Shown here: piece after piece, positions 4,901-55,803 of the stretch
How the letters are laid out: the number at the start of each line of letters is the position of its first letter
How positions within the stretch are numbered: the first letter of the stretch is position 1
Source of the DNA: Suillus spraguei
Lineage: Eukaryota; Basidiomycota; Agaricomycetes; Boletales; Suillaceae
Direction of reading: 5' to 3'
Length of the DNA stretch: 64,000 nt
Assembly (NCBI GenBank): GCA_016800925.1
Contig: JABCPU010000222.1
Span: forward strand, 1-64,000
Program-made: the position numbers and the translations under genes
Notes under the pieces: generated by a model
What the model was told of the DNA's origin: nothing
Database searches by the model: none
The model's input: the letters and a program-made list of their open reading frames with translations, nothing else

Positions 4901-5099
4901 CATATCTTCTATGAATGCTGTATAAACTAATTGGCGTGAGTCAGGTAAGAGGACAAGGACCCAAGGCTTCTGAATGTCATAGGAAGCGAGGAGCTAACGG
5001 ACTTGAGCTTGATGTCATCGTGGGTAGCACTGACTAGAAGAGTTCTTCAGCGTCGATACGTCAAACTCGTAGATTGTCTTGGCGTCGTCTGCAGTACTG
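1993..5099. other. No gene recognised
   Basis: This 3.1-kb stretch holds only short frames on both strands without recognisable motifs. Part of 2.0-2.6 kb may be the continuation of the relic at 1.8 kb. No RNA gene or repeat was seen. Confidence 0.45.
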
Positions 5100-6720: not shown

Positions 6721-7028
6721 AGGTGAGATCTCCCGGTATCAGTATATCATATGACTGACACTGACAGAGATTTGAAGGCGAGCTCCCTGGTAAAGCTGAA
6801 TGTTAAACCGTCCCCGCTGGAAATACAGATAGTATCTTGGTCTTGAACCATACACTCCGGCTGTGGATACAGCAACGGGGGGCCTTGATGAGCCGATGTG
6901 GAGTACATTCGCGTAAATGAATGTGTTGGCAGATTCGGATAAGGGGTTCTCGTGTTTGTGTCCAAGAGGCCCCTATTTTCTTCTATATACTTCGACTCTT
7001 TTATCTCCGTCTGATTTGCCCCTCTATC

Positions 7029-26619: not shown

Positions 26620-26992
26620 GCTTGATGATACTTTTTGGGGGCGGGTGGGATGTTTTGGGTCTTGAGGATGATATGAACGAATAAGGTTCAAGTGGCGGAA
26701 TACATATACAGTGTGACATGCATACGTAATCAAAGATGTATTTGGCAAAGTGTGACCTCTGACATATCGAGCGCTTCGGTGTCGATCTGGCACAACACTT
26801 CGCAGGTCACTATTGGGACATTCCAGAGAATATGCTTCTGTGACTCCGTTCCTTCTGACTCCCAACGTTAAATATTCAATCAGTTATCTCTTTATTTCTT
26901 TTGTTTCTCAATTGTATACTTAGTTATAGTGGTATGTTTCTTCTTTTCATGCTATGACTTGTTCTGACCAAGTTGTTTACATTTCCAAGGTC
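26620..26992. promoter_or_regulatory. Divergent intergenic promoter region
   Basis: These 373 bases separate RPL10A (minus) from the coiled-coil gene (plus), whose ATGs face away from each other, so promoters for both must lie here. On the RPL10A side the sense strand carries a C-rich run CCCACCCGCCCCC about 15-30 bases before its ATG. On the other side there is a T-rich stretch at 26885-26912. No TATA box is certain. Confidence 0.5.
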
Positions 26993-29694: not shown

Positions 29695-30444
29695 GTGCCC
29701 ATCGCGTTCCCTCCACTTTCGCATTGGAATACTCAAAGGACTGGATGATTGTGTTGCTCAGACTTTTTTTCTTGTTATTCTTGTCGAGCATGGTATTTAC
29801 CGCAGCACGCAACTACTAACATAGAGTAATCAACTGACCAGAAGGTCTGTATATCCACTGCAACTGTTTTCGCTATTTCATTTCAATATGAATCAATTAT
29901 ATCACTGTCAGAATGTTCGAGGATCATGTCCCTAGATTAACCAGATCACATATCTAAGCGAACTGAATAACTGGAGCGTACCTGTATTTTGGTGGGAGAA
30001 TCTGCTGCTTAACTTTTTTCTACATGATACCCAGCACAGCTTCCGTTACAATTTGTTTTTACGGGATGGTCCGTCTCGGTACCCTACGCTCGACGACTCG
30101 ACCCTGCTCGATCTTACCTCGACATGTTCACCAAGCGGCGAGTCCTCGGTGGGCCGCCGCCTATTAGACTGTCAGCATGCCGCTGACATGAAGCGGGTCG
30201 GTTCAAAAGTTGTGACACACATATTAGACTTAATAGTGAGGTTTCAGGCTCAAGCCGGCACAAGCGGCCCTCGACACCCATAACACGGCTCGGACACAGA
30301 CCTGTCAGCCGATGATGACAAAAGCATTTACAAACGTACCATCATACCACGTAGGTAGAAACCAGTTCCAGAGGACAGAGAAGGTCGTGACCGTCGTTTT
30401 TCGGGTTTGAAAACTTTTCTTGTAAATAAGTTAGGGGTTATGTA
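29695..30444. repeat. Duplicated 5' flank of the oxygenase gene (copy A)
   Basis: From about 29930 the sequence matches 33888-34430 upstream of the intact oxygenase. Shared blocks include CATGTCCCTA, a TTACAATTT(G/A)TTTTTACGG block, TTAGACTGTCAGCATGCC, GACAAAAGCATTTACAAAC and TAAGTTAGGGGTTATGTAAT. A shorter part recurs at 52540-52800. It contains no gene. The first 200 bases after 29694 are the 3' region of the coiled-coil gene. Confidence 0.75.
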
Positions 30445-30776
30445 ATGATCAGACAGTGCGATTTTAACTTCCAACTCACATCCTCCATCGATAAAAAATG
30501 TAATCAAATCCCTCATCAGTTTCCTCAAACTCGGAGCCAGAGAACGAGGGTGCTTATTGATGTTCTCGAGAATCACTTCAATGTCGCCCTCCATCCTGTT
30601 CTTATCCGTGCTGTTGAAGAGGGAAACGACGAGGACTGTCAGGAGCAGTTCTTTGCACACAAATATAAATCCTCTGAGGAGAACTTTGAAGGGGGACCTT
30701 GTACTGAGGCACAAATCAGTGGTGAGGCAATGTATTATGGCGCTGGCATGTTTGTAGGACCAAAGAACGAACAGTA
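30445..30776 (+). pseudogene. 2OG-Fe(II) oxygenase copy with two internal deletions
   Basis: This fragment keeps the 5' flank and the first codons (reading FPQTRSQRTR in one frame, equal to the SNSEPEHE region of the intact gene). It then jumps to the C-terminal third (LIDVLENHFNVALHPVLIRA, EQFFAHKYKSSEENFEGG). A second deletion joins that to the last 20 residues (ISGEAMYYGAGMFV). The whole catalytic double-stranded beta-helix, with its iron ligands, is gone. The remaining open frame of about 110 codons is an accident of the joins and is not expected to make an enzyme. Confidence 0.85.
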
Positions 30777-31245
30777 ATGGTGTATAGGGCTCTAGTCTGG
30801 GTAAAAGTTCAAATCAGGATCTTGTGAGAAGGAGAAAGCATATACTAGTACTAGCAGTGCTCACTGGATTATGACTCGATGTTTTATCAGCGAAACAATT
30901 CCGGCCACAAATCATTTTTATGGTATGACCCCGGGGTGCTGTCATCTTGCAAGCAACTATTGAAAGTACAGAGTAATGATACAGGAGACATTTGAAGTTA
31001 AGACCGACGGGATTTCTGAATTGCTCATCACCACGAAGGAGAAGCTGATTCAGTTCTCATCACCACTGCTCGCCTCCGAGTGTCCTAAACTCGATGGGTA
31101 GAAAAATAATTTACACGGTGAGTGATATCTACTTAACCGTACATAGCTAATTTAATTCATCTCTTCCCGAAGACTGAAACTCTTGATAAACCAAGGGTCT
31201 TGTCGATAAAGATATATTGTAAAGTAACAATGTAACGTCTTGTCC
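30777..31245. repeat. Duplicated 3' flank of the oxygenase gene
   Basis: This block recurs after the intact oxygenase (35790-36020), after copy C (51073-51290) and beside the beta-galactosidase gene (43677-43980). Shared words are CACTGGATTATGACTCGAT, TCAGCGAAACA, TTGCAAGCAACTATTGAAAG and GAAGCTGATTCAGTTCT(C/T)ATCACC-like sequence. It carries no gene. Confidence 0.75.
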
Positions 31246-31430
31246 GAGGGGTTCAGACTAAGAGGCCTGTACCTTGCTACCCAGTTCGTATGAACCAGGC
31301 GTACCCAATGTTGGACACCCTCTTACCCATTTGACGTATAACTGAGATCGATATGGTTGAGAGGCGTCGTCAAACACGAAGGACATTAAATCCATCTAGG
31401 ATACCTAAGTCGAACGTCGTAACAAAGCCG
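31246..31430 (-). pseudogene. 3' fragment of a GH35 beta-galactosidase
   Basis: The segment matches 44260-44455, the C-terminal coding part of the intact beta-galactosidase, in the same orientation. Shared strings include AACCAGGCGTACCCAATGTT, CTCTTACCCAT, TTGACGTATAACTGA and TAAGTCGAACGTCGTAACAAA. Deletions remove several short pieces (for example after TTACCCAT and inside the block before AAATCCATCT). Only this 3' end is present, so it is a duplication remnant and not a gene. Confidence 0.85.
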
Positions 31431-31792
31431 GCATAGCACGCAATTACTACGTGCCCAGTGATGACTTGCTACAATGTACATGAAAATAATCAGGATACAC
31501 GACTCCATTGACTGTCCTCTCATTTTTGTTTAATCTATCATCTGTGCCGTATCTTCAGTGTTCACCAGCTATCAACATCAACTAGGACGTATTTGGTTGT
31601 GATGGAAAACTGATGAGCCCTCACCGCATCAATTCCGTGGTGATGCTTGGCATCCTTGATATTAATCCTTATATATATGATAGATATCAATCCCCCTTTC
31701 AGTAATCTAAAAGCACTGGATGTCGTCATGATGATGTTTAGTTGAAACGAACGGCTTCATTCGCCGCTGTCTCGCACCCATCTTCTAACGTC
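31431..31792. other. No gene; upstream of the membrane-protein gene
   Basis: No motif is seen apart from AT-rich sequence including TATATATATGATAGATAT near 31668-31687, about 110 bases before the next ATG. It could serve as a TATA-like element. Confidence 0.35.
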
Positions 31793-33525
31793 ATGCCCAT
31801 AATCTCAAATGATCCCAGTTGGTGGCCACTTATCAATGCGACTCGTATTGGCAGCTATTTTATAGGTTTGTGGAGAACTAGTCGATGATGATGGCGGTGT
31901 CTCGATCTGACGTTGTCTCTGGTTACGCAGTTGCTGCTTTTGCTGGGGTGATGCACGATTGGGGTGCGCACGATATATTACACAACCGTGCTGATATTCT
32001 GATGGTAATTCCAGCCTTGACACTCGCACAAGAGGTAGGTATATGTCATGAACAATGTAGCTATGTAGCTGAGGTTGGTTTTATCATAAGATTGAGCTGG
32101 TCTGGGTGAGCACAGCTCCACCATGGCACTGGAAGAACAACTTTGATCGATTCGAGATAGAGGCAACACTGGTCCCTCATGACCTTTCTGTATCTCAGTG
32201 TACGTACTAAGCTTGCGTTAGAGTGTAGTTGGAAAGCTCAAAAACATCATAGGCGCGCTATCTTGGAATGTTCTATGCCATGTATGTTGATAAAGCTCAG
32301 CAACTGATCTTGTTCTAATGAACCATCGATGCATCTCCCACAATCAGCATCAGTTTACTGAGCATGTCTCTTCACCTTCGCTGTGTTTATTTCTCTGACC
32401 AGCGGCACACAGCCAGTGTTCCAACAATCCCGGTGACAGATGCGGTAAGTCTTCTGCACCAATGCCTGTTTTTCCCCTCAAATTAACCGCAGCACTTTGT
32501 AGGGGTGAGTTTGAACCGTGATCAGCTTTTTTGTTCGCTTTGATGACCACTACAGATGTAAGACTGTCTAGAGTGTGATCCATCCGAGGTCGATCTCTAA
32601 CTGGATTTGCCAGGCCGGATGTTGTACATCACGCAGGATTTGACGAATGTTGTAGTATTTCCGATACTTTGCGGTGAGCTTTGCAGTCGCAAGCCTTCAG
32701 TGATACATATTTTACTGAACCATCTTGCAAGTCATCATGATCGCTCGACTACATGCCATGTATCAACGATCTCGAAAGATGCTAATAGTTCTCGCTGTCA
32801 TCTTCCTGGCTGACAACATTTTCAACGGAGTGATCACCGCAATAGGAATAAAGTATACTTCAACGGGTATGCTTACTTGTGGATCAAAGATGTGCATGAG
32901 GGTCATTGATGAATACCAGAGGCACTCATTCTTTCCGGCACCTATCAGTGCATGATTAGCTATGCGGACGGTATCCCAGTTCTGGATTCCATTACTTGGA
33001 TATTCGCCATTGTGTGGGAAGTCCTCGCACTGTGTCTTGCTATCCGGATTGCTGTAAAACACTTCCGTGAGCTGCGACAACATTCTGCAGGAGGGATCAT
33101 CGGGGACTGTTTCACGGCTTTGATGAAATCTCACGCTATTTACTTTTCGAGGTGAGCTCATATTATGATTACGGTTTTATTTTTCTGCTGAATTTCTGCA
33201 CTGTGCACATACTAGTTTTGTTGCTGTTTCTTGCTTCCAGATCGGTCTTTTGTCTCCAACACTCTCAGCGGTACGCCAATCTATTTCTGACCTCTACGAA
33301 CATAGTTCATTATTTCTATAGGTCCAATTTTCCTTAGAAACTGATATATATTGCGGCTTTCTCCAAATCTTCACGTTCATCCAACTGTTTGTGCTGGGAC
33401 CACGGCTGATCCTCGGTATTCGAGAGTTTAACGCTAAGCTCGTGACCGACTCAGATGCGAAAACCACCATGACTTCAATCGTTTTTCAGGAGCACGTACA
33501 CGTGTCGACTAGCAGCAGTGTGTAA
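31793..33525 (+). CDS. DUF6533-like seven-helix membrane protein
   Basis: The gene can be read from ATG at 31793 (MPIISNDPSWWPLINATRIG) through about ten small exons to TAA at 33523. Landmarks in order are AVAAFAGVMHDWALTLAQE, IELVWRQHWSLMTFLYLS, ARYLGMFYAM, LYITQDLTNVVVFPIL, VIMIARLHAMYQRSRKM, an ILVLAVIFL-type helix, LDSITWIFAIVWEVLALCL, FRELRQHSAGGIIGDCF, FVAVSCFQIGLLSPTLSA, and CGFLQIFTFIQLFVLGPRLI. The tail ends in STSSSV. This order of tryptophan-rich loops and hydrophobic helices is that of the large basidiomycete DUF6533 membrane family, whose role is unknown (often expanded, often near mobile or duplicated DNA). Splice sites between 32.33 and 32.70 kb are the least certain. No lesion was found in the parts I could follow. 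Confidence 0.75.
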
Positions 33526-34430
33526 CGGGAAGTGTTCGATGTGACTCTATAGAAAGCGGAAGAATTTCTTCTATTTATTCAAAGTTTCGTTGTGGTACTC
33601 ATTATTAGACCTTTAGTGTAGATTTGACAGAGAAATAGGTTGAATTCTATGAGATGCACAGCTGCTGCAGCTAACAGGCCTTGGAAGAGTGACAGTTGGC
33701 AATTCCTCTAGCTATCATTGATAGTACTACTAGTAGGTCTCTATGTCACGCTCTAGTAGCCCGCTGTGTTTGTTTTTTGAGCATGTCTAAACTTTTAAGT
33801 CAATTGCAAGAGTTGGAAACTGTTGCATAGACACATTTTGTATTCCAACACACATATCTACACAAAAAACGTGAGTTAATATCGAGGACCATGTCCCTAA
33901 CGTTTACCACATATCTGAGCGCCCGTTACCCCGTTACAATTTATTTTTACGGAATTAGACGCTCGTCCTCGGCCAGGCGACATGCTCAGTGTATTGACAA
34001 GCGGCAAATCCTCGATACCGCCACAAATTAGACTGTCAGCATGCCACTGATGCTAAAGCGGGTTAGTTCAAAAGTTGTGATACATATATTAGATTTAATA
34101 ATGAGGTTTCAGCATTTCAAGCCGTGAGCGGCTCTCGACATCCATAACGCGGCTCGGACACAGACCTGTCCAGTTTGCACCAGCCGTGATGTCGATGAGG
34201 ACAAAAGCATTTACAAACTTACCATCATACCACGTAGATGGAAATCGGTTCCAGAGAGCAGAAAAGGTTGTGACCATGGTTTTTCAGGTCTGAAACCAAA
34301 CTTCTCTTGCTCGTCCGCAAGCAAGTTAGGGGTTATGTAATATGAGGCCTGGCGTGCGATTTTGACTTTTGCCACTCGCCAATAGAAGCCTCTTCAATCG
34401 ATAACCAACTCCCATCTGCCATCGATAAAC
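33526..34430. repeat. 5' flank block of the intact oxygenase (copy B)
   Basis: From about 33888 this matches 29930-30440, and its last 250 bases also match 52540-52740. It must contain the oxygenase promoter. The last 80 bases (TGCGATTTTGAC, then the ATCGATAA-rich leader) are conserved before each copy. The first 350 bases are the 3' region of the membrane-protein gene and hold nothing else. Confidence 0.65.
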
Positions 34431-35789
34431 ATGGACTCAAACACCTCATCGGTTTCCTCGAACTCAGAGCCAGAGCACGAGCTCTCTGTCTTCCAGCGCA
34501 TCGGGGAATATCTCGATTCTTTTTCTGGCTCTACAGCATATGAAGTGCACAGAGAAACCAAGCTCACACGTGCACTCGATAACCTTGCTAGTAGTCCGTT
34601 CGCGTCCTTCGAGAGTATGGTGGATACAGCCACACTTGAGCTGCTTGTCAAGGGAGAGGACGCGGGAACATGGATGGAACCTGCCGTTGCAGTATTGCAA
34701 AAGCATGCAACCCCTTCACCATTCGGCAGGGGAACCGAAACTGTCATGGATCCAACTTACAGGCACGGAACAGAGCTCAAAGCGGATGAGTTCGCTTTCG
34801 ATTCAAAAAAGGATGAGAGGGCATACTACAAAGAGTTCATACAGCACATCCAGGATGAACTCCAGATAAGCATGTTTGTAGGGAAAAGAGCTTATCTCAA
34901 GTTCTACAAGCTCGCCATATATGGCGAAGGAGGCCATTTTGACTGGCATCGTGACTCAACACATAGCGATGCTCATCATGGAACGGTGCTCGTCGCGCTC
35001 AACACGGAGTGGGAGGGAGGAGAACTTCTGTTGAGGCATCAAGGCATTGAGACAACCGCCAACTTGCATCCAAAAAAGTCCGGCGACAAGCTCTGCCCAG
35101 TCGTAGTTGCATTCTACACAGACACAGAACACAAAGTCGTGCCTGTTACCAAGGGCACACGACTGGTCCTCCAGTATGACGTCGAAGTTGTCGACAAGTC
35201 GCCTGAAGATTGGGTTCCTACGCCTAGTTACACTCCCTTGGAAAGGGCTGTTCAGCGTCACCAGGACATTGCATCCCGCATCCACACTTATCCCAACTTG
35301 GACCAGAAGTTGGTGCAGGCTGTCGTTGATGAGATCAGAGCATTGCACAAAGAAGAAGACTTCACTACCGTCGCTTTCCCACTTACTCACCTCTATCGCA
35401 AGGCAAGCGTTAAGAAGAAATACCTTAAGGGAACTGACTCGATGCTTTTCGATGTTCTCGAGAATCATTTCAACGTCGCCCTCCATCCTGTTCTTATCCG
35501 CGCTATCGAAGATGGTAATGGTGACGACTCTGAGGAGCTGTTCTTTGCACACATCTATAAATCGTCTGAGGATAAAGGAGGAGGAGAACAAGAAGAAGAG
35601 GTGGATGAAGAGGAGTATTTTGAGGGAGGCCGAGTTCTCAAGAACGCTTCGTTTCATCTTCCACGGGCCTCTGCGATTGTGCAGCTTTCATTGCCAACCG
35701 GGGTACACCTTGGTAATGATGCGGAGATCGATGGTGAGGCAAGGTATTATGGCGCTGGCATGTTTGTGAAACCAAAGAGCGAAGAGTAA
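34431..35789 (+). CDS. 2-oxoglutarate/Fe(II)-dependent oxygenase (prolyl-4-hydroxylase type), intact
   Basis: A single exon of 452 codons from ATG (MDSNTSSVSSNSEPEHELS). The N-terminal 70 residues are acidic and Ser-rich. The oxygenase core spans about residues 145-255. It contains the iron ligands in GHFDWHRDS (His173 and Asp175), the distal histidine in YTDTEHKV (His234), and the 2OG-binding arginine ten residues later in KGTRLVLQYDV (Arg244). About 200 further residues follow, with a conserved LENHFNVALHPVLIRAIED block, a Glu-rich insertion near residue 390 and a C-terminal GEARYYGAGMFVKP. The enzyme should hydroxylate or demethylate a protein or small molecule using 2OG and oxygen; the substrate is not known. 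No signal peptide is seen, so it is probably cytosolic or nuclear. It is the only intact member of at least five copies in this window. Confidence 0.85.
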   Translation: MDSNTSSVSSNSEPEHELSVFQRIGEYLDSFSGSTAYEVHRETKLTRALDNLASSPFASFESMVDTATLELLVKGEDAGTWMEPAVAVLQKHATPSPFGRGTETVMDPTYRHGTELKADEFAFDSKKDERAYYKEFIQHIQDELQISMFVGKRAYLKFYKLAIYGEGGHFDWHRDSTHSDAHHGTVLVALNTEWEGGELLLRHQGIETTANLHPKKSGDKLCPVVVAFYTDTEHKVVPVTKGTRLVLQYDVEVVDKSPEDWVPTPSYTPLERAVQRHQDIASRIHTYPNLDQKLVQAVVDEIRALHKEEDFTTVAFPLTHLYRKASVKKKYLKGTDSMLFDVLENHFNVALHPVLIRAIEDGNGDDSEELFFAHIYKSSEDKGGGEQEEEVDEEEYFEGGRVLKNASFHLPRASAIVQLSLPTGVHLGNDAEIDGEARYYGAGMFVKPKSEE

Positions 35790-37039
35790 TAGTGTTCAGG
35801 GGCTCTAGTTTCGGTAGATGTTCAAACCAGGACCTTTTGAGATGGAGAAAGCACATGTACTAGTCCGAGCAGTGAGAAAAATACTCACTGGATTATGATT
35901 CGATGTTCTCAGCGAAACAATTCTGACCACAAATCATTTTCATGGTATGACTATCCGGGTGTGTTGTCATTTTGCAAGCAACTATTGAAAGTACATAATA
36001 ATACAGGAGATATATGAAGTCAAGGCCGACGCGCATAGAGAAGTCTCTGGACCCACCGTCTCCTGGAGGTATCGATAAAGCACATGCTACTCGACTTTGA
36101 AGCTTCAGAACTGCTGCCATTCACATCTTATCAAAATCGACCACTAGACAACTCTTGAGTATGAAACGCGATCTCATAAAGACCTAGTCGACGCCAGACT
36201 CCTCGCATATGTCGATGCTGGGAAAAGACCTCCCTTTCGAGATGTGTCGAATATTGTCAGTGGACTCATTTCAGACGCAATGTCATGAATTCAGGAATGA
36301 GGATGGTCTGTCCTTGATGGGTACGGTGTCGTCAGTTTTTCACGCCTGTAAGCTTATATGGCAATCTTTATAATTGTTATACAGTGCTCCCCCATGCGGT
36401 TTTCTTTCCCACCCAACCTCCACTGGCACGACCGACTTCTCAGCCGCAGCCCAACATTGTCGCACTTGTATATCCGAGTCTGTGCCCAGTTCACCATCGC
36501 TTTTTGCTTTGCTTGTCCCAGACACTCGTCCATTTGCTCATTTCCGTCAAGTTTCATGTGTTCTTCCATGCCCCACGTGTCGCCCTCATCATAGTACTAG
36601 CTTGTTGTACCATACTGCACATGCATGTTGTACTGTATGCAATGAACCATGTTCCTTTCCCTTTCAACAACCCAGTCCTCTTAATGTGTGTGCTGTGTGC
36701 AACCGAAACCCGATGACCTTGCAATATGCCTCCGCTGCAATCTTCTCCCGCCATTAAATACATTTCCTTCTCACTTGACGGCATTTTGGATCGCTTGCTT
36801 CATTACACTATAATCGTTCTATGCCCACGAAAGTCTGTTAACTAATCACCATTCCAACACAACTTTCACTCGAACTCAGACCTAATACTATCTATGTACA
36901 TGGAGTTAACTTGCTATCGTACTTGATGTAAGATTCTTTGACGATTCCGGATGATATGCAATTGTTGGAATACGAAAATTGTAATCATGAGCTAAAAGTA
37001 TCTAGTAATTAACTGCGAGGAACAGAAAAGGCTGGAGAC
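35790..37039. repeat. Repeat blocks between the oxygenase and the NACHT-WD40 gene
   Basis: The first 230 bases are the oxygenase 3' flank block. The stretch 36110-36440 matches 49010-49320 (CACATCTTATCAAAATC, then CTCTTGAGTA, GAAACGCGATCTCATAAA, CTCCCTTTCGAGATG). The stretch 36480-36870 matches 43245-43640 (TTTGCTTTGCTTGTCCCAGA, TGTGTGCAACCGAA, CACTATAATCGTTC). The short frames inside these blocks have no motif. The last 170 bases before 37040 are the 3' end of the receptor gene. Confidence 0.75.
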
Positions 37040-40000
37040 TCACTCCTCATAGCACTGCTGCCAGCGCATCCCATGCGCCATGCGACTCAAATCAAGCTCA
37101 ACCCCACGTCTGGGTATCACTAATACAGTCCAAGGATTATAGAATGGTTGTCGAGAAGCGGGTGGCACCCAGAATAAGAGCCGACAATTGGGTCCCATCA
37201 TCCATCCATCCTCTCCCAGAAAAGTGAACGTCCATCTGGGGTCATCATGCGCGGCGTCCACAAGTAGTTCAGCAGTGTCGCGCAGTGCATGAGTTGAGTC
37301 GGATGAGAAGCAAATGAAGTCATCGTCCGTAATATTGGGCGTGGGGACGGCAGCTGTTGGATATTGGATGCAACTATCATGTGGAGAGGATACTGGACAT
37401 TCTTCTTCAGTACGTTTCAATGTCTTTTTAATTGCTGCATGCCAGACTCGGACAGTCACTTCATCATATGAACGCGAAATAATGTGGACTCCATCGCGCG
37501 AGAAAGAGACTGATGTGACCCTTTCAGTGTGCCCCCACAAGGTTTTACCAATTGGTTGCCCTGTTCCGACATCCCACAGTTCGACACTCGCATCACTAGA
37601 ACCAGAAACGAAGCAAGTCCCATCCGGCGAAAACGAGACCGATGTAACCGAATCAGTGTGCCCCTCCAAGGGCTCACCAACTGGCTGCCCTGTTCCTGCA
37701 TCCCATAGCCGAACAGTCTTATCCGCAGAACCAGTTGCGATGCGAATCCCATCCGAAGAGAACGAGATTGATGCAACCCAATCAGTATGCCCCAGCAAGG
37801 GCTCACCAACTGGCTGCCTGGTCCCTGTATTACAAAGCAGAACCATCCCATCCATCAAACTAGTTGCGATGCGAGTCCCATCCGGAGAAAACAAGACTTT
37901 GAGAACCTCTTTAGTGTGCCCCAGCAAGGGCTCACCGACTGGCTTCCCTGTTCCTGTACACCACAGCCGGACAGTCTTATCCACAGAACCAGTCGCGATG
38001 AGTGTTCCGTCGGGAGAAAATGAGACTGAGTTGATTTTATCAGTGTGCCCCCGTAAAGGTTCACCGACTGGATGCCCCGTTCCTGCATCCCACAACCGAA
38101 CAGTCTTATCGTTCAAACCACAAACGATGCGGGTCCCGTCCAGCGAGAACGAAACTGAGTGAAGCCCATCAATCTCCCCCAACAAAAGTTCACCCACTAA
38201 CTGCCCAGTCTCTGTATCCCACAGCCGAACCGTCCCATCCACCGAACCAGTTGTGATGCGAGTCCCATCCGGAGAGAACAAAATTGAGAAAACACAAGCA
38301 GTGTGCCCCAGCAAGGGCTTACCGACTGGCTGACCTGTCGCTGTATTCAACAGCTGCACAGTGCCATTCCTAGAACCAGTCGCGAAGTGGGTTCCATCTG
38401 ATGATAGCGAGACCGAGGCAATCCAATCAGGGTGCCCTTGCAAGAACTTGCTACGTGGTTGGTCTGTAGATACATCCCACAGCCGGACAGTCCTATCTGC
38501 AGAACCAGTTGCGATGCGAGTCCCATCCGGAGAGAACGAGACGGAATAGAGATAACCTGTGTGGCCAGACAAGAGCTCACCGACTGGCTGCCCTCCGGCC
38601 AAATCCCACAACTGGACAGTCCAATCAGCCGAACCTGTCACGATGCGACTTCCATCCGGCGAAAAAGAAACTGACCAAACCCAATCAGCGTGCTCCAAGG
38701 GCTCATGGATAGGCTTCCCGGTCGCCGCATTCCACAGCCGGACAGTGTTATCCACAGAACCAGTCACGATGCGAGTCCCATCCGAAGAAAACGAGACTGA
38801 CGTAACCCAATCAGTGTGCCCCTGCAAGGGCTCGCCAACTGGCTGCCCCGTTGCTGCTTCCCACAACCGAACAGTATTATCATGTGAACCAGAAACGACG
38901 CGAGTCTCATCCGGCGAGAATGCTACTGAGTTAACCTCTTTAGTGTGCCCCCGTAAGGGTTCACCAACTGGCTGTCGCGTTGCTACATCCCACAGTCGGA
39001 TTGTCATATCCGCTGAACCTGTCACGATACGAGTTCCGTTCGGCGAGAATGAGACTGATGAAACTCTTTCAGTGTGCCCATATAAGGGATCACCAATGGG
39101 CTGCCATGTTGTTACATCCCACAGCCGGACAGTCTTGTCGGATGAACCAGACACAATGCGTGTCCCATCCGGCGAGAAAGAAACCGAGTTAACTGTGTTT
39201 GTGTGTCCTAGCAAGGGCTCGCCTACTGGCTGCCCAGTCCCTGCATCCCACAGTCGCACAGTATGATCCATCGATCCAGTCACAATCCGAGTCCCATCCG
39301 GCGAGAACGAGACTGAGTTAACCTCCTCAGTGTGCCCGGTGATCACAGTTTGAACAGCCGTCCAGTTGATGTCACGTCCAGATGCCACACGAAGGGAGTT
39401 AAGAAATCGCCTAGAAAACGTTTTGGATAGAGCAGAGTTGACGGGCGAGAATGGCAGTGCTGATACATAGAGATGAGGTGTGCTGTGCAAGATCATGCCG
39501 CCGAAGACTTGAATAAATCTTTGCACGTCCATTGCAGCGGACGAGGCACCTTCATATCCGATGTGACCCTGCAATTGTGACTGCGCGTGAGTGTGTTATC
39601 TGACACCTGATAAGTATGTACTCACCTTCAACCACTTGGCAACAACCGGAAGGGCGGGGACTGCGCCACTGAGCGCATTGATAAGGCAGAGTACCTCAAG
39701 CCAGAAGAACAATCGCTCATGATCGAAGAATGATTTAATTTCTTTGGGGAGTTCCGGATCGAAGTCAGTTGTTTGTACGTAGATAGGCCAAAATCGACAG
39801 GCGTAGGATAGATGTGGGGAGATGCGCTTTTCAACTCGTTTCTGTAGCCCGGAATCATCGGAGTTTGGGAGATAAGATGATTTTGAATCGCAAATATTGA
39901 AGGAAAGTTCATGTTCCATCACTCGAAGTGATGCGAAAATAAGGTCTCGTTGTACCTTCGACACATCGATGAAGAACTCTCCGCTGTGCGATCGGTCCGT

Positions 40001-46900: not shown

Positions 46901-48090
46901 GTCAAACCCTTGCGGGTAAGAATCCATACTTGAGGACAATGATTATGTCAACACTAGCTCAACTGTCTCATAAATGAACTTGCCCGTAGATATTCACGGC
47001 ACCCTATACGCCGTGGAACTCAACATAACAGTCATCTGGAAATCATTAAGCTTACCGTTCCATTGATCCACGCCCTATTTTCTCCTGAATCGTTGGCGGT
47101 AAACGGGACAACAATACCAGAGCTCGAATAGAATGTTTCCAGCTCGCGAAAGTATTCTGCATGCGTGTCTGGTTCCTGGAAGTATTCATTGTCTTTATGT
47201 TGTAATTAAGCTCAACTGGATCACACGGACACGTCAAATGTGAAGGCCACTAACCGATCTGGATTGCTAGAAATGAAGCGACCATTAGACAAGTTAATGC
47301 AAAACATGATCAACGCCGGCTTGCCTATTACCGGTCCGCCTTGGGTCACCTGGTAAGGAGCGGTTTCGGTAATGATACCATGCACGTAGTCCTGCCAAGC
47401 TGCATTCCAGTCCGTCGCGTTCGTCCGCAGTTCACCTGCAACCTCTGATGTTATCCAGTGTGCAATACCTCCTGCAGTCGTCTCTGCATTGATATAAGGT
47501 CCTGATCCTCATTAGTAATTACCCGTTCAAAACACAAAGGATCATACCTGGACGTAGGAAAATCCATATGCCAGTTTGTTTCGCAGCCTCATAAAGGGGC
47601 GTCAAAGCACGGTAATCATTGAAGTCAATAATACCAGGAGAGGGATTGATCAGAGCCATGTGAGAATAAACACTGATAGTGTTAAATCCAGCAGCCTTCA
47701 CTTTCTGGAGGATATCAAGCCATAGTCCAGGCACAGGCAGTCGAAATGTGTGAAACTCTCCTGAACTAGGTGTACAGTGTAAGTGTACGAAATGTGGTCT
47801 GAATGTTCGTCGAGTACTCACTGAATGAAAATGCGCTGTCCTTTGATAATTAAGCTATACTCATCCCACAGAACATCGTTTGTACGTCCGTTCCCAGTGA
47901 AACCTTCCGGCACATCTACTACTGGTTCTGCCCTCGAGAAATCAAGATGAGACGCCGGGGAGAATATATTCGAGGGCCTATCTGACGACACCATAACGCA
48001 CAGAACTGAGACAATTACAAGAAGTACCCATGACAGTCCACAACTCCGGTTGGAGAACCTAGACGTTGCAGGACTACTGAGGGGTGGCAT
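43979..48090 (-). CDS. Beta-galactosidase, glycoside hydrolase family 35
   Basis: A gene of about 1000 codons with many small introns, from ATG at 48090 (MPPLSSPATSRF) to the stop at 43979. After a short N-terminus comes a hydrophobic helix (LSWVLLVIVSVLCVMVSS) that is either a signal peptide or a signal anchor. Then VLWDEYSLIIKGQRIFI, SGEFHTFRLPVPGLWLDIL, KAAGFNTISVYSHMALINP and TGIWIFLRPG mark the GH35 barrel. The acid/base glutamate is in GGPVIAIQIDNEYF (codon 47187-47185), built from three exons including a 12-nt micro-exon. The nucleophile is in WYFPEFQGGSFDGWG (about 46.76 kb). The beta domains and jelly-roll modules follow, ending with TVAVALWVMERQAVTPTLQL. It hydrolyses terminal beta-galactosides of plant cell-wall pectin and hemicellulose outside the cell. 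No lesion was seen in the exons checked. Confidence 0.85.
47255..47266 (-). other. 12-nt micro-exon in the beta-galactosidase active site
   Basis: Exon CAATCCAGATCG encodes the end of an Ala codon, Ile-Gln-Ile and the first base of the Asp codon of IQIDNEY. The intron before it (47324-47267) starts with GC (donor GGCAAGC) and ends TTTCTAG; the intron after it (47254-47193) is GT-AG. Skipping the exon keeps frame but deletes four residues beside the catalytic glutamate. Confidence 0.7.
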
Positions 48091-49704
48091 GTCGGATTGT
48101 AGCAACTTGAGATCCACTGCATCAAGTGTTGCTTTCCCGTTCTCAGTATTACCAAGTGCATTTATACTGTGTATGGTGTGACCTGGGTGCACCCAGGTGG
48201 CACCCCTACCCAATCCACATGTAGATAACATTCTGAAGGTCCGTTGGCACCAGTGCGGGTCAGAGTATCGCCTGTGCGAATGGATCCGCAGATAGTACGG
48301 ATCACCCGCAGGTGACAAATCGTACATAGTACGGAATGACAGATACAAATTAGAACTTGCAGGAAATGATGGGTAGTACACAATATCTACGACCATCGGC
48401 AAGCAGAGTTTATTTCAACGGCATCAGGCCGCGGCCTGGATCTTGGTGCTGGAGACATGCGGAGCATCGAGGGATGCTTCAATTGAGTCTGGAGAGATGG
48501 AAGTGTCCTCGGTATCAAGTACTGCAGGCAGGAGCCCATTTACTAGTTGCCGCTGTGCGCTGCAGTCTTGAGGATGCATGGGTCGTGGTTGGTACTACTA
48601 GTGACGAGATTATCGCATGAGATTCTGGCGGAAATCATGGTAGTTTCCGCTCGATATACACTTACATAATAATCGAAGATGTGTGTGACACGCTTGCCAT
48701 ACCATCAACTTCAAGTTCAATTGTACTATGTATGATGACTTGGACTACTAGTATCCTAGTCTCTTGTAGCACTATGGCGCCTGGCACTGAGTCCATGATA
48801 GTGTGTCACTAGCACAAGTCAAATTTCAAATTCAGTGCGAATGAAGCTTCCTCAAATCTCGCTAGAACGGTTGCTAGCGTTCAACGTTGCAACGCCAAAC
48901 TCTATCCATCGCATGACTCACTTGCCAGCGAGGTTCCATGCTTTATCGCCTGGAGGCATTGATGAAGCTCACACTATGCGACTCAATCTAGTATCGTAGC
49001 TTCGGTACTACTGCCATTCACATCTTATCAAAATCAACCACTAAATGACTCTTGAGTACGAAACGCGATCTCATAAATATCTAGTTAATGCCAGACTCGC
49101 CGCATATGTTAATACTAGGAGATCACCTCCCTTTCGAGATGTCTCGAAAATTGTCAGCGGACTCATCCCAGATGCCATGTCGTGTGTCCCCCAGGAAGGA
49201 GGATAGTGTGTCATTAAGGAGTGCGTCATCAATTTTTTACGCCTAGAAAATTATATGACAATCTTTATAATCAGTGTTACACAGTGCTCCCTCATGCCAT
49301 TTTCAATCCCACCTGACCACTAATGTGCTATCTCACATTGGAAGACAATTGAACATACTCTTCTCTCCATTTCACTCGACGGCATCTTGGATGACTTGTT
49401 TGGTTGCACTATGATCGTTCCGTGCTCTCAAAAATCTGTCACCTAGTCACTTGTCACTCCAACTACCAACCTGTGATCAGGTGCAATATTTGCTAGTATA
49501 CAAATCGACTCGTTATCATACCGTTGATGAAAGGTTCTTCATTTCCACGTTCAGTTGTACCTGAATATTTGAATATTGAATGCCAGACAGACTCAGATCT
49601 TGCCGACGTGCCGTCCATAAGTTAGGGGTATGGTCACCAGTGAACACAGGGGACTGCTTGCGATTTTAACTTAAATCTTCCGACCAATAAACACTTCGGC
49701 GAAA
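48091..49704. repeat. Repeat blocks upstream of the beta-galactosidase
   Basis: The left edge holds the galactosidase promoter. From about 48940 to 49320 the sequence matches 36050-36440, and 49330-49480 matches 36755-36870 and 43540-43650. Near 49610-49700 the leader typical of the oxygenase copies appears (GTCCATAAGTTAGGGGT, TGCGATTTTAAC). No gene is seen. Confidence 0.7.
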
Positions 49705-51072
49705 ATGTTCACCATCACAATTGAGGATTACTCAGACTCCTCATTCTCAGACTCCTCATCAATTTCCTCGAACTCAGAGCCAGAGAATGAGCTCTCCACC
49801 TTCGAGAGTATCGGGCGATATATCGATTATATTTCCAGTGCTACCACAGCATATGAAGTGCACAGAGAGACCAAGCTCACACGCGCACTCGACAACCTTT
49901 CCGGCAGTCCGTTTGTGTCCTTCAAGAGTCAGGAAAATGCAGCCACATTAAAGCTGCTCGTCAAGGGAGAGGATGCAGGGACATGGATGGAACCTGCCGT
50001 TGAAGTGCTGCAAAAGCATGCAACCCCTTCACCATTCGGCAGGGGAAAAGAAACAGTCATGGATCCAACTTACAGGCACGGAACAGAGCTCAAAGCGGAT
50101 GACCTTGCCTTCAGTTTGGATGATGAATATAATATCCTCACAGATGGTTCGTGCTACACATCCAGAGAGAACTCCAGGCAAGCATGTTCGTAGGCAAAAA
50201 TGTTACCCTCAAGTTATACAAGCTCGCCATATATGGCGAAGGGGGTCATTTTGACTGGCATCGTGACTCCACACAAAGCGATGCTCATCATGGAACGGTG
50301 CTTGTCGCACTCAACACGGAATGGGAGGGAAGAGAGCTTATGTTGAGGCATCAAGGTGTCGAAACAACTGTCAACATGCATCCAAAAAGTCCGGCGACCA
50401 GCTCCGCCCGGTCGTGGTTGCATTCTACACAGACACAGAGCACAAGGTCGTGCCTGTGACTAAGGGCACGCGACTAGTGCTCCAGTATGACGTCGAAGTT
50501 GTCCAGCAACCGCCTGAAGATCGGATTCCTCTGCCTGGTTACACTCCCTTGAAAAGGGCTGTTGATCGTCACCAGCATATTCATATTGCATCCCACATCC
50601 ACACTTATCCCAACTTGGATCAGAAGTCGGTGCAGGCTGTCGTTGATGAGATCAGAGAATTGCACAAAGAAGGCATCCATATCGTCGCTTTCCCGCTGGC
50701 TCACCTCTACCGCAAGGCAAGCATTAAGAAAAAATAAAATATCTCAAGGGAAGTGACTCAGCGCTTTTTGATGCTCTCGAGAATCATTTCAACGTCGCAC
50801 TCCATCCTGTTCTTATCCGCGCTATTGAAGATGGTGAAGGGGATGACTCTCAGGAACTGTTCTTTGCACACAAGTATAAATCGCCTGAGAAGATTGAAGA
50901 GGAACCTTCGAGTGGCGGAGTTCTCGAGAACGCTTCATTTCATCTTCCACAGACTTCTGCAATTTTGCAGCTTTCATTGCCAACCGGGATGCACCTTGGT
51001 AACCAGGCAGATATCAGTGGTGAGGCAAGGTATTTTGGCGCTGGCGTGTTTGTGGAACCAAAGAGTGAGTAA
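49705..51072 (+). pseudogene. 2OG-Fe(II) oxygenase copy C, three frameshifts
   Basis: The copy starts with ATG (MFTITIEDYSDSSFSDSS) and follows the intact gene to the end, including HFDWHRDS, DTEHKVVPVTKGTRLVLQYDV and GEARYFGAGVFV before TAA at 51070. The frame breaks three times: near 50130-50150, before the helix that reads ELQASMFVGK; at 50383-50388, where CCAAAAAGTCC has one A fewer than the intact copy; and at 50727-50741, where AAGAAAAAATAAAATATC has extra A residues and creates a stop. All motifs survive in pieces, so the loss is recent. Two of the three changes are in A runs, so consensus error must be excluded. Confidence 0.85.
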
Positions 51073-51448
51073 TGGTCTTCAGGGGCTCTAGTTTCGCTAG
51101 AAAGAGATATTCGCATTCAAATCAGGACTGAAGAAAGCATATGTAGTAGTAGTACTAGCAGTTACACAATGAATCGTGATTCGATGATCTATCAGCGAAA
51201 CAATTACGACCACAGATCATTTCCATGGTTCGACCCTGGGTTGCTGCTGTCATTTTGCAAGCAAGTGTTGAAAATACATAGTATAGGGCGTAGCTATTTT
51301 GACGCGGCATTGACAAGCCACTAATGAGGCCACGGTGTCAAATCATATGATATACATGACAGAGTTAGGAGCATAGTACATCAATACCTTCGCACCGTTG
51401 AACGTATCAAAAGAATATTGGCTAGTACTTGACTAGACAGTAAGTATT
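51073..51448. repeat. Oxygenase 3' flank block, copy C
   Basis: Matches 30777-30990 and 35790-36000 (TATCAGCGAAACAATTNCGACCACA-like sequence, TTTTGCAAGCAA). It diverges after about 51290. No gene. Confidence 0.65.
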
Positions 51449-51613
51449 CTATCCATGTCCTACTTTCCAGAGGGCCAGCGAACGATCAGAGGATCTGGGG
51501 ACAAGACTACTCGGAAATGGGATCTCAAGGTGGGAAAGGAGATTGAAGAATCGCGGTATATCATATATCTCCGGACTTGCGATGATAGTACAGCGCAGAC
51601 ATGGACACTTTAG
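51449..51613 (+). pseudogene. Isolated WD40-repeat relic
   Basis: The plus frame reads LSMSYFPEGQRTIRGSGDKT, then TRKWDLKVGKEIEESR, and ends CDDSTAQTWTL with TAG at 51611-51613. It is clearly the same family as the WD40 relics at 5.5 kb (SVSYFPDGQPMISGSGDKTT...DLKMGKE), 46 kb away, and on the opposite strand. Here the tryptophan of WDLK is kept. Less than two repeats remain, so it is a fragment. Confidence 0.7.
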
Positions 51614-52118
51614 GTCAAGCGTGGGAACCTTGATGTGGTTCGCGAATCGCGAATCGCGGTTGACGCGCCTGTGACGCGGCATCCGAGCCAACTTCAACTC
51701 CTCAAAGTTTCTACTATCCGACTGAATCAACTCCCAGATCAAGTTGCGTGGGTTCATGATCATTTCTCCATAATTTTTTTCATCATAATGGATACATCCT
51801 ACTGGCCAATTAGCCAATGATTATTTTCCTGGTACCGACGAGTGACACGGCTGGCCCGGGTCTGACTGCGGTGCAAGGGTGGAAATGCATGATCATTCGT
51901 TCTTTTATTAATCTTACGGATACCTACTATTAACTAAGTCAGCAAATGACAATTTTCTTTTCCTTCCTCTCTGGACCCCTCTCTGAAGCACTCCGATGTT
52001 TAACGGGCACACATTCTTCAACTGGCAGCGAAGGGCAGCGTTTCACGGGCCCAATTTCTTTTTCGGCCAGCTATGACTTCGAATAACCCGTCCGAAGATG
52101 TCATCAGGGTTATCGGGC
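51614..52118. other. No gene recognised
   Basis: About 500 bases without a motif or a clear repeat match. Confidence 0.4.
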
Positions 52119-52636
52119 TTATTGAATAGAGCGAGTACTTAGCATTTTAGTCACTTTAAGTTCACTCTCATTGTAATATCTTCCCGGAACCCATTCATTA
52201 GGGATATCGAGGTTCCACCGCCTGAGATGTTGACCAGCATCCAAACCCCACAGCTGGTTGCCTCCAGGTCCTCCTTCGAACATCCTTGCTTCTAGTGCGG
52301 TCAGAGGTCTACTGTCAGCCACAAAGCTGTCGGCAGGATAACTTATCAGTGAGATCAGTCCAAGCCATCCTCAACAGCTTGCTATCATTCCATTCCTCGT
52401 TCCGAACTTGGACGCGTCTTTTGAAATAACTAGCCTTTCGATGAGAGAAAGCATGTACCAAAGGTATGCCAACCGAGCCATTTTTTGATAGACTTGATCT
52501 TGATAGTGACTCTGTTCCAGCATTTGCCTGCGAGCGGCTCTCGACATCCAACGCGGCTCAGACACAGACCTGCGCCAGTTATGATGTTGATGACGATAAA
52601 AACATTTATAAATGTATCACATACTACATAAACCAC
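52119..52636 (-). CDS. Conserved-looking hypothetical fragment
   Basis: Two adjacent minus-strand frames may be exons of one gene. The upper reads VGIPLVHAFSHRKASYFKRR and EEWNDSKLLRMAWTDLTDKL. The lower reads PLTALEARMFEGGPGGNQLW and DIPNEWVPGRYYNESELKV. The tryptophan-rich wording looks like real protein, but I cannot name the family, and the upper part overlaps the duplicated 5' flank of the next oxygenase copy. It may be the 3' remains of a gene cut by the duplication. Confidence 0.3.
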
Positions 52637-52802
52637 CAGTCCCTCGCCTCTTGCCCTTGTCGTCCATAAGTTAGGGGTGTGGTCAATTTATGTAATACGA
52701 TCAGACCTCCTGACCAATGAACAAGCATGCGATTATGACCTTTGCTACTCGCTCATAGTCCATTGATAACAAACTCACATCTTCCATCAATAAATATCGG
52801 CG

Positions 52803-53589
52803 AAAATGCACTCAGATACCCCCAGTCAGATAGTCACGTCTCATCAAGTTTCGTGGACCCAGACTCCTCATCTGCAGACCCCTCATCGGTTTTCTCAAAC
52901 TCAGAGCCAGAGCATGAGCTCTCCATCTTCCAGCGCATCGGGGGATATCTCGATTCTTTTTCTGGCTCTACAGCATATGAAGTGCACAGAGAAACCAAGC
53001 TTACATGTGCACTCGATAACCTTGCCAGTAGTCCGTTCGTATCCTTCAAGAGTCAGGAAAATACAGCCAAATTTGGGCTGCTCGTCAAGGGAGAGGATGC
53101 GGGGACATGGATGGAACCTGCCATTGGAGTATTGCAGAGGCATGCAACCCCTTCGCCATTCGGTAGGGGGGAGGAAACTGTCATGGATCCAGCTTACAGG
53201 CATGGAACGGAGCTCAAAGCGAATGAGCTCACCTTCTGTGTGAAAGAGAATAGGGAATTGAGATCTTATCTCAAGCATTTCAAGAGCCACGTCCAGAATG
53301 AACTCCGGAAAAGCATGTTCGTAGGCAAAATCGTTACCCTCAAGTTATATAAGCTCGCCATATATGGCGAAGGAGGTCATTTCGACTGGCATCGTGACTC
53401 CACGCATAATAATGCTCACCATGGAACAGTGCTCGTCGCACTCAACACGGAATGGGAGGGAGGAGAGCTTATGTTGAGGCATCAAGGCGTCGAGACAATT
53501 GTCGACATGCATCCACAAAAGTCCAGCAACGAGCTCTGGCCAGTTGTGGTCGCATTCTACACAGACACAGAGCACAAAGTCATGCCTGT
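52803..53589 (+). pseudogene. 2OG-Fe(II) oxygenase copy D, 5' part
   Basis: The leader matches copy C up to GGCGAAAATG, but that ATG (52806) is out of frame with the body. The body frame reads SNSEPEHELSIFQRIGGYLD through the iron-binding GHFDWHRDS to TDTEHKVMPV and then leaves homology at 53589. A stop follows within three codons. The 3' part resumes at 54419 after an insertion of about 830 bp. The copy is therefore dead twice over: start out of frame and body interrupted. Confidence 0.85.
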
Positions 53590-53601
53590 CAAGATATGAC
53601 T

Positions 53602-54218
53602 ATCGACGTCACTTTTTTTTTTTTTTTTTTTTTTTTTTTTGAATCCTTGTTTTGTGTCCGTTGGGGCGGAGCCCTATGATAGACATTACATGCGGTATTT
53701 ACTCTAATTGATGCATATGTGCGTGTCCGTGGATGTTGGGTCGTGTTCAATGGTCCTGGCCGAGGCGCGGACGTTAACACCAGCTTAAGGTGAAAGGGGG
53801 GGTTGTTGCAGGGATTGGGGTGCGTCTAGCTGTTTTTGTCGTTCTTGTCCTTTGGTGGTGATACGTCTCCGAAGGTTGGCTCGAATCTTTTCGTTTTGGC
53901 TATGAATGTGAACAGTGACTTTAGACATTCAGCGTCATTGAGAATGTGCTTCACATGGTGCGCTCTCGTTCCTAGTTCTTGTCTGAGTATGTTGCGTTGT
54001 CTGGTGTATGCTGGGCAGGTGAGAAGGAAGTGATGGACTGACTCGTTTCCTTCGTTGCATTGTTGGCATGTTGCTGTTTCTGACTTCGCTATACGGTGTA
54101 GGTGTTTGTTGAGAGGAATGTGTCCTGTTCTGAGCTGGAAGAGAAGCGAGCTGTGACGACGCGGGAATTGATCAATGAGTCCTGCGAAGTGTTTCGACGG
54201 AGCGGATCGACGTCACTC
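53602..54218 (-). mobile_element. 5'-truncated LINE (Tad1/jockey-type) with target-site duplication
   Basis: A 12-bp direct repeat ATCGACGTCACT flanks the element (53602-53613 and 54207-54218). Just inside the left copy is a run of about 27 T (53614-53640), the poly(A) tail of an element lying on the minus strand. The remaining roughly 590 bp end with the C-terminal part of the reverse-transcriptase polyprotein, which makes it a classic truncated target-primed insertion. Its position inside oxygenase copy D explains part of that gene's split. Confidence 0.9.
53826..54205 (-). pseudogene. C-terminal remnant of LINE reverse-transcriptase polyprotein
   Basis: An open frame with no ATG start reads SKHFAGLIDQFPRRHSSLLF, then QLRTGHIPLNKHLHRIAKSE, and a zinc-binding C-x2-C-x8-H-x4-C motif (CQQCNEGNESVHHFLLTC) before a basic tail and TAG at 53826. 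The phrase LLFQLRTGHIPLNKHLHRI followed by that cysteine-histidine motif is characteristic of the end of basidiomycete LINE ORF2 proteins after the RNase H domain. Reverse transcriptase, endonuclease and RNase H are absent through 5' truncation, so it cannot move by itself. Confidence 0.85.
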
Positions 54219-54418
54219 TCGTACGTACTCATCCTTTTCTTTTACATACGCAATCACTCTTCGATACATGCTTCAGACACGTTTTCCTTTGATTCTCCGT
54301 CTTAATCAGCATATTAATACCTCTCACCGTCGAATATTGTTGAGTAGTCTTTTGACCCAATGTGAAGTCTTCGTTCTTGTCCCTCATCCCTGGTCCGAGC
54401 CTCTTAAGATCTTCACAA

Positions 54419-55047
54419 TGCCCGTGACCAAGGGCATACGACTGGTGCTCCAGTATGACGTCAAAGTCGTCCAGCAAGCGCCTGAAAAGTGGATTCCCCC
54501 GCCTAGTTACACCCCCTTGACGAGGGCTGTTTATCGTCACCAGTACATTGCATCCCACATTCACACTTATCCCAACTTGGACCAGAAGTTGGTGCAGGCT
54601 GTCGTAGACGAGATCAAAGAACTGCACAAAGAAGGCATTACTACTGTCGCTTTCCCGCTTATTCACCTCTACCGCAAGGCAAGCATCCAGAAGAAATACC
54701 TCAAGGGAACTGACTCAGCGCTCTTTGACGTTCTTGAGAATCATTTCAACGTTGTTCTCCATCCTGTTCTTATCCGCGCTATCGAAGATGGCGAAGGGGA
54801 TAACTCTTCGGAGCTGTTTTTTGCACACAAGTATCAATCGTCTGAGGAGAATGAAGGAGAGCCTTCTCATGCTAAAAGACGGAGAAGTAGAGTTTTCAAG
54901 AATGCTTCGTTTTACCTTCCACGGGCCTCGGCGATTCTGCAACTTTCATTACCGAACGGGGTGCACCTTGGTAATGAGGCCCAGATCAGTGGCGAGGCAA
55001 GGTACTATGGCGGTGGCATGTTTGTGGAACCAAAGAGCGAGGCGTAA
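54419..55047 (+). pseudogene. 2OG-Fe(II) oxygenase copy D, 3' part
   Basis: Homology resumes with MPVTKGIRLVLQYDVKVV, continues through YPNLDQKLVQAVVDEIKEL and LENHFNVVLHPVLIRAIED, and ends GEARYYGGGMFVEP with a stop at 55045-55047. The frame is open for the whole part and matches the intact copy to the last residue. It holds the 2OG-binding arginine but neither the HxD iron ligands nor the distal histidine. It could in theory be translated alone, but no promoter or start is indicated. Confidence 0.8.
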
Positions 55048-55270
55048 TAGTGTTCAGGACCTCTTTTTTTTGGTAGAAAGAAAGATTCGCATGCAAATTA
55101 GGATTGTTTGATATGGAGAAAGCCTATGTATTAGTACCAGCGGTGAATACAAACACTACTAGTTTTCCTGTCGGATTCTTTCCAGTTGAACAACCTCTGC
55201 AAGCCGCTGCCGCGCTCTCGGCGATTTACCGTGAGCTATCCTGGTTGTTTTTGAATCCCGGGGGAGAGAA
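55048..55270. repeat. Decayed oxygenase 3' flank
   Basis: The first 100 bases resemble the 3' flank block (TAATAGTGTTCAGG, ATATGGAGAAAGC, a TAGTACCAGC(G/A)GTGA-like stretch). Nothing else is seen. Confidence 0.5.
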
Positions 55271-55274
55271 ACGA

Positions 55275-55476
55275 ACGGCTAGATGGAGAGAGATACTTGG
55301 GTGTATGGTTCGACGCACAGCAATGCTCACCTCGGAACGTACTCGACACAGAATGGGAAGGAGGACGAGCTCCGGCTGGTCATGGCCACATTATATGTGT
55401 TGTGCTAATGTATGAGTCAGAATATATATTGTTGAAGCAAAGTATTTTGGCGTAGGCATATTGGTGGAACCAGATT
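55275..55476 (+). pseudogene. Fifth 2OG oxygenase relic
   Basis: A faint copy. The stretch 55300-55385 aligns with the iron-binding region of the other copies (CGACGCACAGCAATGCTCACC against CGTGACTCCACGCATAATAATGCTCACC, then ACACAGAATGGGAAGGAGGA). The stretch 55424-55470 reads VEAKYFGVGILVEP, matching GEARYFGAGVFVEP at the C-terminus. Everything between is missing. Frames are not continuous. Confidence 0.6.
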
Positions 55477-55803
55477 GCAAAGACCCTCCATGGTGTCCGG
55501 ACAACGGACGTGACGAGTGGGAGAGAGACACCACGAAGTGGGACAATCCCGTTGAATTTATCAAAAGCGACGAGGTTTCCGTACTACAACATTTGTAGTG
55601 TCGCTACTAGTGGGGCGAATTTGAGCTTGACTCGGCCCGGAGGAATCAGCGACCGAAATTTATAAATTCCCATGCAAATTCAAGTTGCGTCCTGCAACCA
55701 CAACATTGACAGTCCAGTGCTTTGTGCGTACATACCTGTTCTCAAAGACTCAATTTCATTAACTTGTGGAACGCCTCGTCTACTGGAGGAGGTTCGAGTA
55801 TTG
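55477..55803. other. No gene; upstream of the 55.8-kb gene
   Basis: No motif or repeat recognised. It must include the promoter of the next gene. Confidence 0.4.

Follow-up and report, generated by a model that had tools for sequence, protein, structure and literature searches.

What built, and what is now dismantling, an island of about 25 kb in which copies of one 2-oxoglutarate (2OG)-Fe(II) oxygenase gene stand among a NACHT-WD40 gene of the NOD-like receptor (NLR) type and a glycoside hydrolase family 35 (GH35) beta-galactosidase gene? The island lies in the window analysed here, a stretch of 64,000 nucleotides (nt) of Suillus spraguei DNA (assembly GCA_016800925.1, contig JABCPU010000222.1; C395:1-64000). 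Coordinates refer to this window unless another contig is named, and whole-assembly searches covered 86.2 Mb in 1256 contigs. We consider it likely that the island is a lineage-specific birth-and-death array of the oxygenase gene. As an instance of gene birth and death, a known type of event, it is clear-cut and for the most part unremarkable.

An earlier note on this DNA had counted five oxygenase copies, one of them intact. We delimited the copies by blastn and tblastn against the open gene, copy B, and called coding remains by tblastn. The count holds for B and for three decayed copies that retain coding sequence (A, C and D), but the fifth, X (43243–44456), consists of flank blocks only. 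Copy B is a single open frame of 452 amino acids on the plus strand (34431–35789) with a PF13640 domain, preceded by a 5′ flank (33998–34430, plus strand) common to A and, in part, D, and followed by a 3′ flank, block r (35790–36034, plus strand). The relic A (30132–31427), the pseudogene C (49746–51072) and the two halves of D (52514–53589 and 54419–55145) lie in the same orientation. Matches to the oxygenase across all contigs (E up to 0.001) were confined to this locus and to the contig of the second haplotype.

The decayed copies differ in how much of the gene remains. Copy C with its 3′ flank (49746–51283) is 80% identical to B over 1,598 columns (E = 0). The first half of D (52875–53589) matches B at 84% (E = 9.5e-225) and its second half (54419–55047) at 81% (E = 1.1e-175), while the best piece of A (relic 30132–31009) reaches E = 8.5e-35; such values mean that the likeness of A, C and D to B is not due to chance. 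Copy A comprises a 5′ flank with the first codons (30132–30548), coding remains within 30471–30777, a 3′ flank to 31009 and a GH35-tail remnant (31264–31427, plus strand) recognized by its protein match to a GH35 exon. By blastn, A lacks the counterpart of 34482–35442 in B and of a second stretch near 35576–35706; a global alignment places the gaps elsewhere, at lengths of 1023 and 120 nt. At X, where tblastn at E up to 10 found no oxygenase coding sequence, a block q′ (43243–43672) is separated by 11 nt from a block r′ (43684–44019), and these flank blocks are all that remains. Also in the A copy, an 85-nt stretch of the 3′ flank (30982–31066) recurs at more than 10 other places in the assembly and is probably a small dispersed repeat.

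Copies C and D carry lesions that the two haplotypes of this genome share only in part. Copy C is broken into four frame pieces in the window haplotype and two in the allele on contig C696; a frameshift and a TAA stop near 50727 are common to both, and the further frameshifting indels are confined to the window haplotype. Three of the four pieces (112, 98 and 107 residues aligned) match the S. spraguei database protein P0015 at 100% identity; for the fourth, P0015 is not among the seven best matches listed. P0015 looks like a gene model that bridges the frameshifts of the pseudogene (49746–51068). Copy D retains a 5′ flank remnant (52514–52630), its two gene halves and the start of a 3′ flank (to 55145). 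In both haplotypes an insertion of ∼225 nt, whose ends carry an imperfect 8-nt direct repeat, interrupts it at codons 237–239. In the window haplotype alone, this insertion holds another one, of 592 nt, on the minus strand (53614–54205), so that 53590–54418 is inserted DNA as judged by haplotype comparison. The inner insertion contains a poly-T tract, a repeated 12-nt ATCGACGTCACT and a remnant of a zf-RVT domain (30.0 bits, cut-off 27.5), features that fit a truncated long interspersed nuclear element (LINE) on the minus strand.

The second haplotype also bears on the island as a whole. Contig C696 starts inside the last 70 nt of the B allele and matches window 35720–64000 in four blocks that differ by substitution at 183 of 27,376 aligned sites (0.7%); it holds X, C, D, the NLR gene and the GH35 gene in the order of the window. 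For A and nearly all of B, no second haplotype was found in the assembly: 26500–30100 matched itself alone, and 31440–33990, between A and B, matched itself and relatives at 72% or less. The latter stretch holds a multi-exon gene of a large dispersed family (at least 41 match rows, with 40 of 299 candidates scored), which we take to resemble a fungal multi-pass membrane protein; the one exon piece searched gave no Pfam match above cut-off. On C696, a 15.5-kb block (817–16297; loci L009 and L010) replaces window 36535–36809. It contains long repetitive arrays and two frames with Helitron_like_N domains, one of them with PIF1 helicase domains as well. A further 273-nt insertion with inverted ends (C696:28706–28978) lies inside the block p′ described below, and the 15.5-kb block begins with the same end sequence; the two elements, at C696:28706–28978 and C696:818–1101, resemble miniature inverted-repeat transposable elements (MITEs) and share the inverted end CAGGAAATTCACACATTCCTT. 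The indels in C, the LINE-like insertion in D and the Helitron-bearing block all differ between the haplotypes: decay of the array is continuing.

When did the copies arise? Copy B corresponds over its full length to the database protein P0004 (99.3% identical). In a tree of 40 rows, comprising 37 of 120 listed homologues together with B, C and D, these three copies and the near-identical P0004 and P0015 form one species-specific clade (support 99/98) adjoining S. subluteus and S. subalutaceus; branching within it is less certain, B grouping with C at 90/80. Because this clade stands apart from the other sampled Suillus proteins, the duplications are placed on the S. spraguei branch. Synonymous divergence (dS) between copies is 0.33–0.39 and dN/dS is 0.34–0.42, values consistent with long constraint before decay. 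Among the homologues listed, clustered at 90% identity and counted by hand from 120 of 144 rows so that all counts are lower bounds, at least one cluster occurs in each of nine Suillus species besides S. spraguei and in Rhizopogon salebrosus; at least two occur in S. clintonianus, S. subluteus and S. lakei, and at least five in R. vinicolor and R. vesiculosus. For four R. vinicolor proteins the longest contig given is the same, of 15,169 bases, and they probably share one scaffold. In the tree, three R. vinicolor proteins each have an R. vesiculosus partner, which indicates that the Rhizopogon expansion is separate and predates the split of these two species. A contig scan for bacterial or archaeal relatives gave 13 pattern stretches, none of which was confirmed.

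The flanks show what was duplicated. The earlier note had given each copy recognizable 5′ and 3′ blocks and had described a single oxygenase cassette. The 3′ flanks are indeed shared: block r is common to A, B, X and C, and D has the first part of it. In A and X the 3′ flanks extend into GH35 3′ exon or tail sequence (31292–31426 in A matches the GH35 exon 44282–44611 at 51% identity over 51 residues), and hence the duplicated segment went beyond the oxygenase. The 5′ flanks, however, are of two kinds. A, B and partly D share one (33998–34481 at B is 72% identical to 30132–30548 at A and 75% identical to 52514–52630 at D), but X and C carry blocks q and p-q, respectively, which also occur 3′ of B as p (36059–36413) and q (36491–36887). 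Upstream of C they form p′ and q″ (48899–49496, like 36059–36887). With queries 36059–36887 and 43100–43700, p/q blocks were also found on six other contigs (C403, C314, C502, C174, C125 and C6). We inspected their context on four of these. On C125, C314 and C502 the blocks adjoin NACHT-WD40 genes, and those contigs have no oxygenase match; on C502 an NLR N-terminal end is followed by p, q and an NLR tail. On C403, the 4.5 kb examined, which include a p block, contain neither an NLR nor an oxygenase match, so p is not strictly bound to NLR genes. From their sequence context, p and q are largely NLR-flank DNA and not oxygenase flanks, and the single-cassette description holds only in part. The p/q blocks at 43.2 and 48.9 kb, which have no NLR gene, suggest former NLR copies that have been lost.

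Two of these other contigs also show how NLR genes and their flanks are arranged elsewhere. On C125 (L022, 28500–36300) and C314 (L023, 292800–300600), direct repeats of ∼0.9 kb surround NACHT-WD40 genes, 6.6 and 6.9 kb apart, respectively; by match to 36671–37407, each repeat includes block q and the NLR gene tail. The loci are 95% identical to each other across 6.7 kb, which suggests recent spread of an NLR unit.

The account that we favour begins from the observed copies, their clade and decay, the haplotype differences, and the predicted fold and catalytic motif of B described below. A segment made of a single 2OG-Fe(II) oxygenase gene with its 3′ flank, at times with the GH35 tail, would have been duplicated repeatedly on the S. 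spraguei branch; unequal exchange between the repeated flank blocks is the most likely mechanism. The same stretch would also have gained and lost NACHT-WD40 genes together with the repeated intergenic blocks that belong to them. The copies may long have been under purifying selection before being lost singly: A and X by deletion, C by frameshift and D by insertion, leaving B as what we infer to be the sole functional copy. Serial segmental duplication in a fast-changing region, as the earlier note proposed, is supported by the single clade of B, C and D, the shared 3′ flanks and the haplotype differences.

Both neighbouring genes named in the earlier note do sit among the oxygenase copies. 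The NACHT-WD40 gene (37040–42058, minus strand, limits approximate) has a WD40 exon (37040–39595), a NACHT exon (39599–41269) and putative N-terminal exons at 41229–41633 and 41753–42058, also with approximate limits. Two Pfam models match above threshold, NPHP3_N with 89.5 bits (cut-off 24.8) and WD40 with 522.7 bits (cut-off 27); NACHT scores 21.8 bits, under its cut-off of 26.7. A NACHT-type NTPase followed by WD40 repeats is the architecture of fungal NACHT-WD40 NLRs. We rejected the stop between the NACHT and WD40 frames as a mark of a pseudogene: it is a single stop inside a 45-nt putative intron with intron-type ends (GTGAGT...CAG), and the two frames can therefore be read as one gene, given this putative splicing. 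In the C696 allele, a 10-nt deletion (at window 37502) shifts the C-terminal frame. HNWD allorecognition NLRs, of the het-d/het-e type, are defined by near-identical WD40 repeats. Here, the repeats fall in 13 windows of 300 nt at a spacing of 129 nt (one step of 255), and the other 12 are 63–75% identical to the reference window, which is not near-identity. HNWD receptors also have an N-terminal HET domain; here, with exon limits that are approximate, neither putative N-terminal exon matches a Pfam model above cut-off. WD40-like coding remnants also occur at 5203–5595 (minus strand) and 51437–51715 (plus strand); within them, 5467–5577 and 51443–51553 are 86% identical over 111 nt in inverted orientation. 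The GH35 gene (about 44282–48414, minus strand, several exons) was recognized by Glyco_hydro_35, BetaGal_dom2, dom3 and ABD2 matches on three of four exon pieces tested, and has an 83% paralogue on contig C527.

Could the oxygenase be a partner of the NLR? On this reading, it would be a host protein guarded by the receptor, a decoy or an effector, and its copies would have grown in number through allorecognition or microbial conflict. NLR-flank blocks stand between oxygenase copies in three places, the NACHT-WD40 gene is readable in one haplotype and frame-shifted in the other, as would also be expected of conflict genes, and fungal NLR gene neighbours can be functional partners, the case described in PMC10197012 being het-S/nwd2. 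The numbers argue otherwise. A search with the NACHT region gave at least 82 match rows in the genome (window, allele and fragments included; 78 of 432 candidates scored), and agaricomycetes are given an average of 72 NLR hits per species in PMC4986451. With a family this large, adjacency to an NLR is weak evidence for a function or a conflict role, and by a hand estimate 0.02–0.13 NLR genes are expected by chance per 25.5 kb, so that the one observed is not a strong excess. The NLR loci on C125, C314 and C502 stand on contigs with no oxygenase match, and the genome has no oxygenase outside the island, hence no second locus at which the association could be tested. In R. vinicolor, what appear to be four homologues on one 15-kb scaffold would leave little space for NLR genes between them. 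We therefore regard an NLR partnership as improbable, and the conflict role that the earlier note drew from the receptor's proximity is not supported.

A bolder version would make the island an enzyme–receptor conflict module, in which a hydroxylase like prolyl 4-hydroxylase (P4H), with a conserved C-terminal domain of its own, is co-amplified with NLRs through shared breakpoints and joint turnover and is modified, guarded or used by the receptor. The intact partners do differ between the two haplotypes of one genome; we think this version quite improbable. That the oxygenase unit is itself mobile or carried by an element, such as a Helitron or a composite transposon, is in our view highly improbable. 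Helitron, LINE-like and MITE-like insertions do occur in the island or its allele, but dispersed copies of the oxygenase are lacking, as it occurs at no other genome locus, and no inverted repeats of at least 40 nt were found in 25–60 kb of the window (the search was not systematic for shorter terminal repeats or target duplications). The idea that the repeats are an assembly artefact of duplicated or misjoined haplotypes, which the partial separation of haplotypes in the assembly and the start of C696 within B might invite, is barely credible and was rejected on the haplotype evidence, because B, C and D differ by ∼16–21% in DNA against the 0.7% between haplotypes, and X, C and D stand in the same order on both contigs.

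If birth and death of the oxygenase gene best explains the island, what does the remaining open copy encode? PF13640 (2OG-FeII_Oxy_3) matches B with 39.6 bits (cut-off 27). In the 2OG-Fe(II) oxygenase superfamily, an HxD...H motif forms the iron triad and a basic residue binds 2OG. The corresponding residues of B, H173, D175, H234 and R244, are kept in 70, 73, 68 and 67 of 73 alignment rows, respectively. A structure model of the full-length protein is confident (predicted local distance difference test, pLDDT, 86.5) and has a double-stranded beta-helix of the P4H/PHD2/PiuC type. Residues 52–256 match structures of P4H, PHD2 and PiuC, and further small 2OG enzymes, the SnoN epimerase for one, match equally well. 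The structural matches listed for the model include no chain of the Ofd1/Tpa1 type, a type with two beta-helix domains. Such a fold does not by itself make proline the substrate. Sequence searches of solved structures returned, for the single protein, only two designed repeat proteins over one short stretch and, for the profile, one chance-level match; NCBIfam gave weak matches to Fe2+-dependent dioxygenases in three of four proteins, far under cut-off. From motif and model, B very probably encodes a hydroxylase that is active with Fe(II) and 2OG and has a P4H-like catalytic domain, and it most likely acts on a protein or a small molecule.

Beyond the catalytic domain, B has a C-terminal part that is conserved in the family: L332 is present in all 73 rows, and K333, D336 and G443 in 72 of 73. 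This part is mostly confident in the full model and has a pLDDT of 73.5 when modelled alone. It has no convincing match in solved structures, an absence that is no proof of a new fold. It probably lies against the catalytic domain and may help shape the substrate site.

The island shows, at good resolution, the birth and death of a gene in an ectomycorrhizal mushroom, pseudogenization being under way between two haplotypes of one genome, and it points to an uncharacterised family of mushroom oxygenases with a conserved C-terminal part. It also illustrates that NLR flank repeats can be mistaken for, or become, part of the duplication unit of a neighbouring gene. Literature searches yielded no description of the array among the titles and abstract openings that they listed, and no paper pairing Helitrons with NLRs came up. 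S. spraguei is described as a white-pine specialist (PMC5065116), and gene families specific to it are for that reason of general interest for host specificity; no link with the array is claimed.

Each part of the island has counterparts in known systems. With P4H, PHD2 and PiuC-YbiX enzymes, B shares the catalytic fold and the HxD...H and R motif; it differs in its low identity to them (∼10–22% in structural alignments) and in its extra conserved C-terminal ∼196 residues. Its closer relatives are the fungal PF13640 Fe2OG dioxygenases of Suillus, Rhizopogon, Armillaria, Mycena and others, which are homologous over nearly the whole length (43–79% identity in Suillus and Rhizopogon rows, 34–41% in the lower-ranked other rows) and have the same catalytic motif and conserved C-terminal part. 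Unlike the other named Suillus species, with one or two clusters each among the 120 listed rows, S. spraguei has gone through at least four gene copies and then decay. Clustering of NLR genes has been described for Sordariales (PMC12258605), and the locus resembles fungal NACHT-WD40 NLR clusters in its NACHT-type and WD40 domains, its many paralogues and its tandem-like repeated intergenic blocks. What sets it apart is that an unrelated enzyme array is interleaved with one readable NLR gene and leftover flank blocks.

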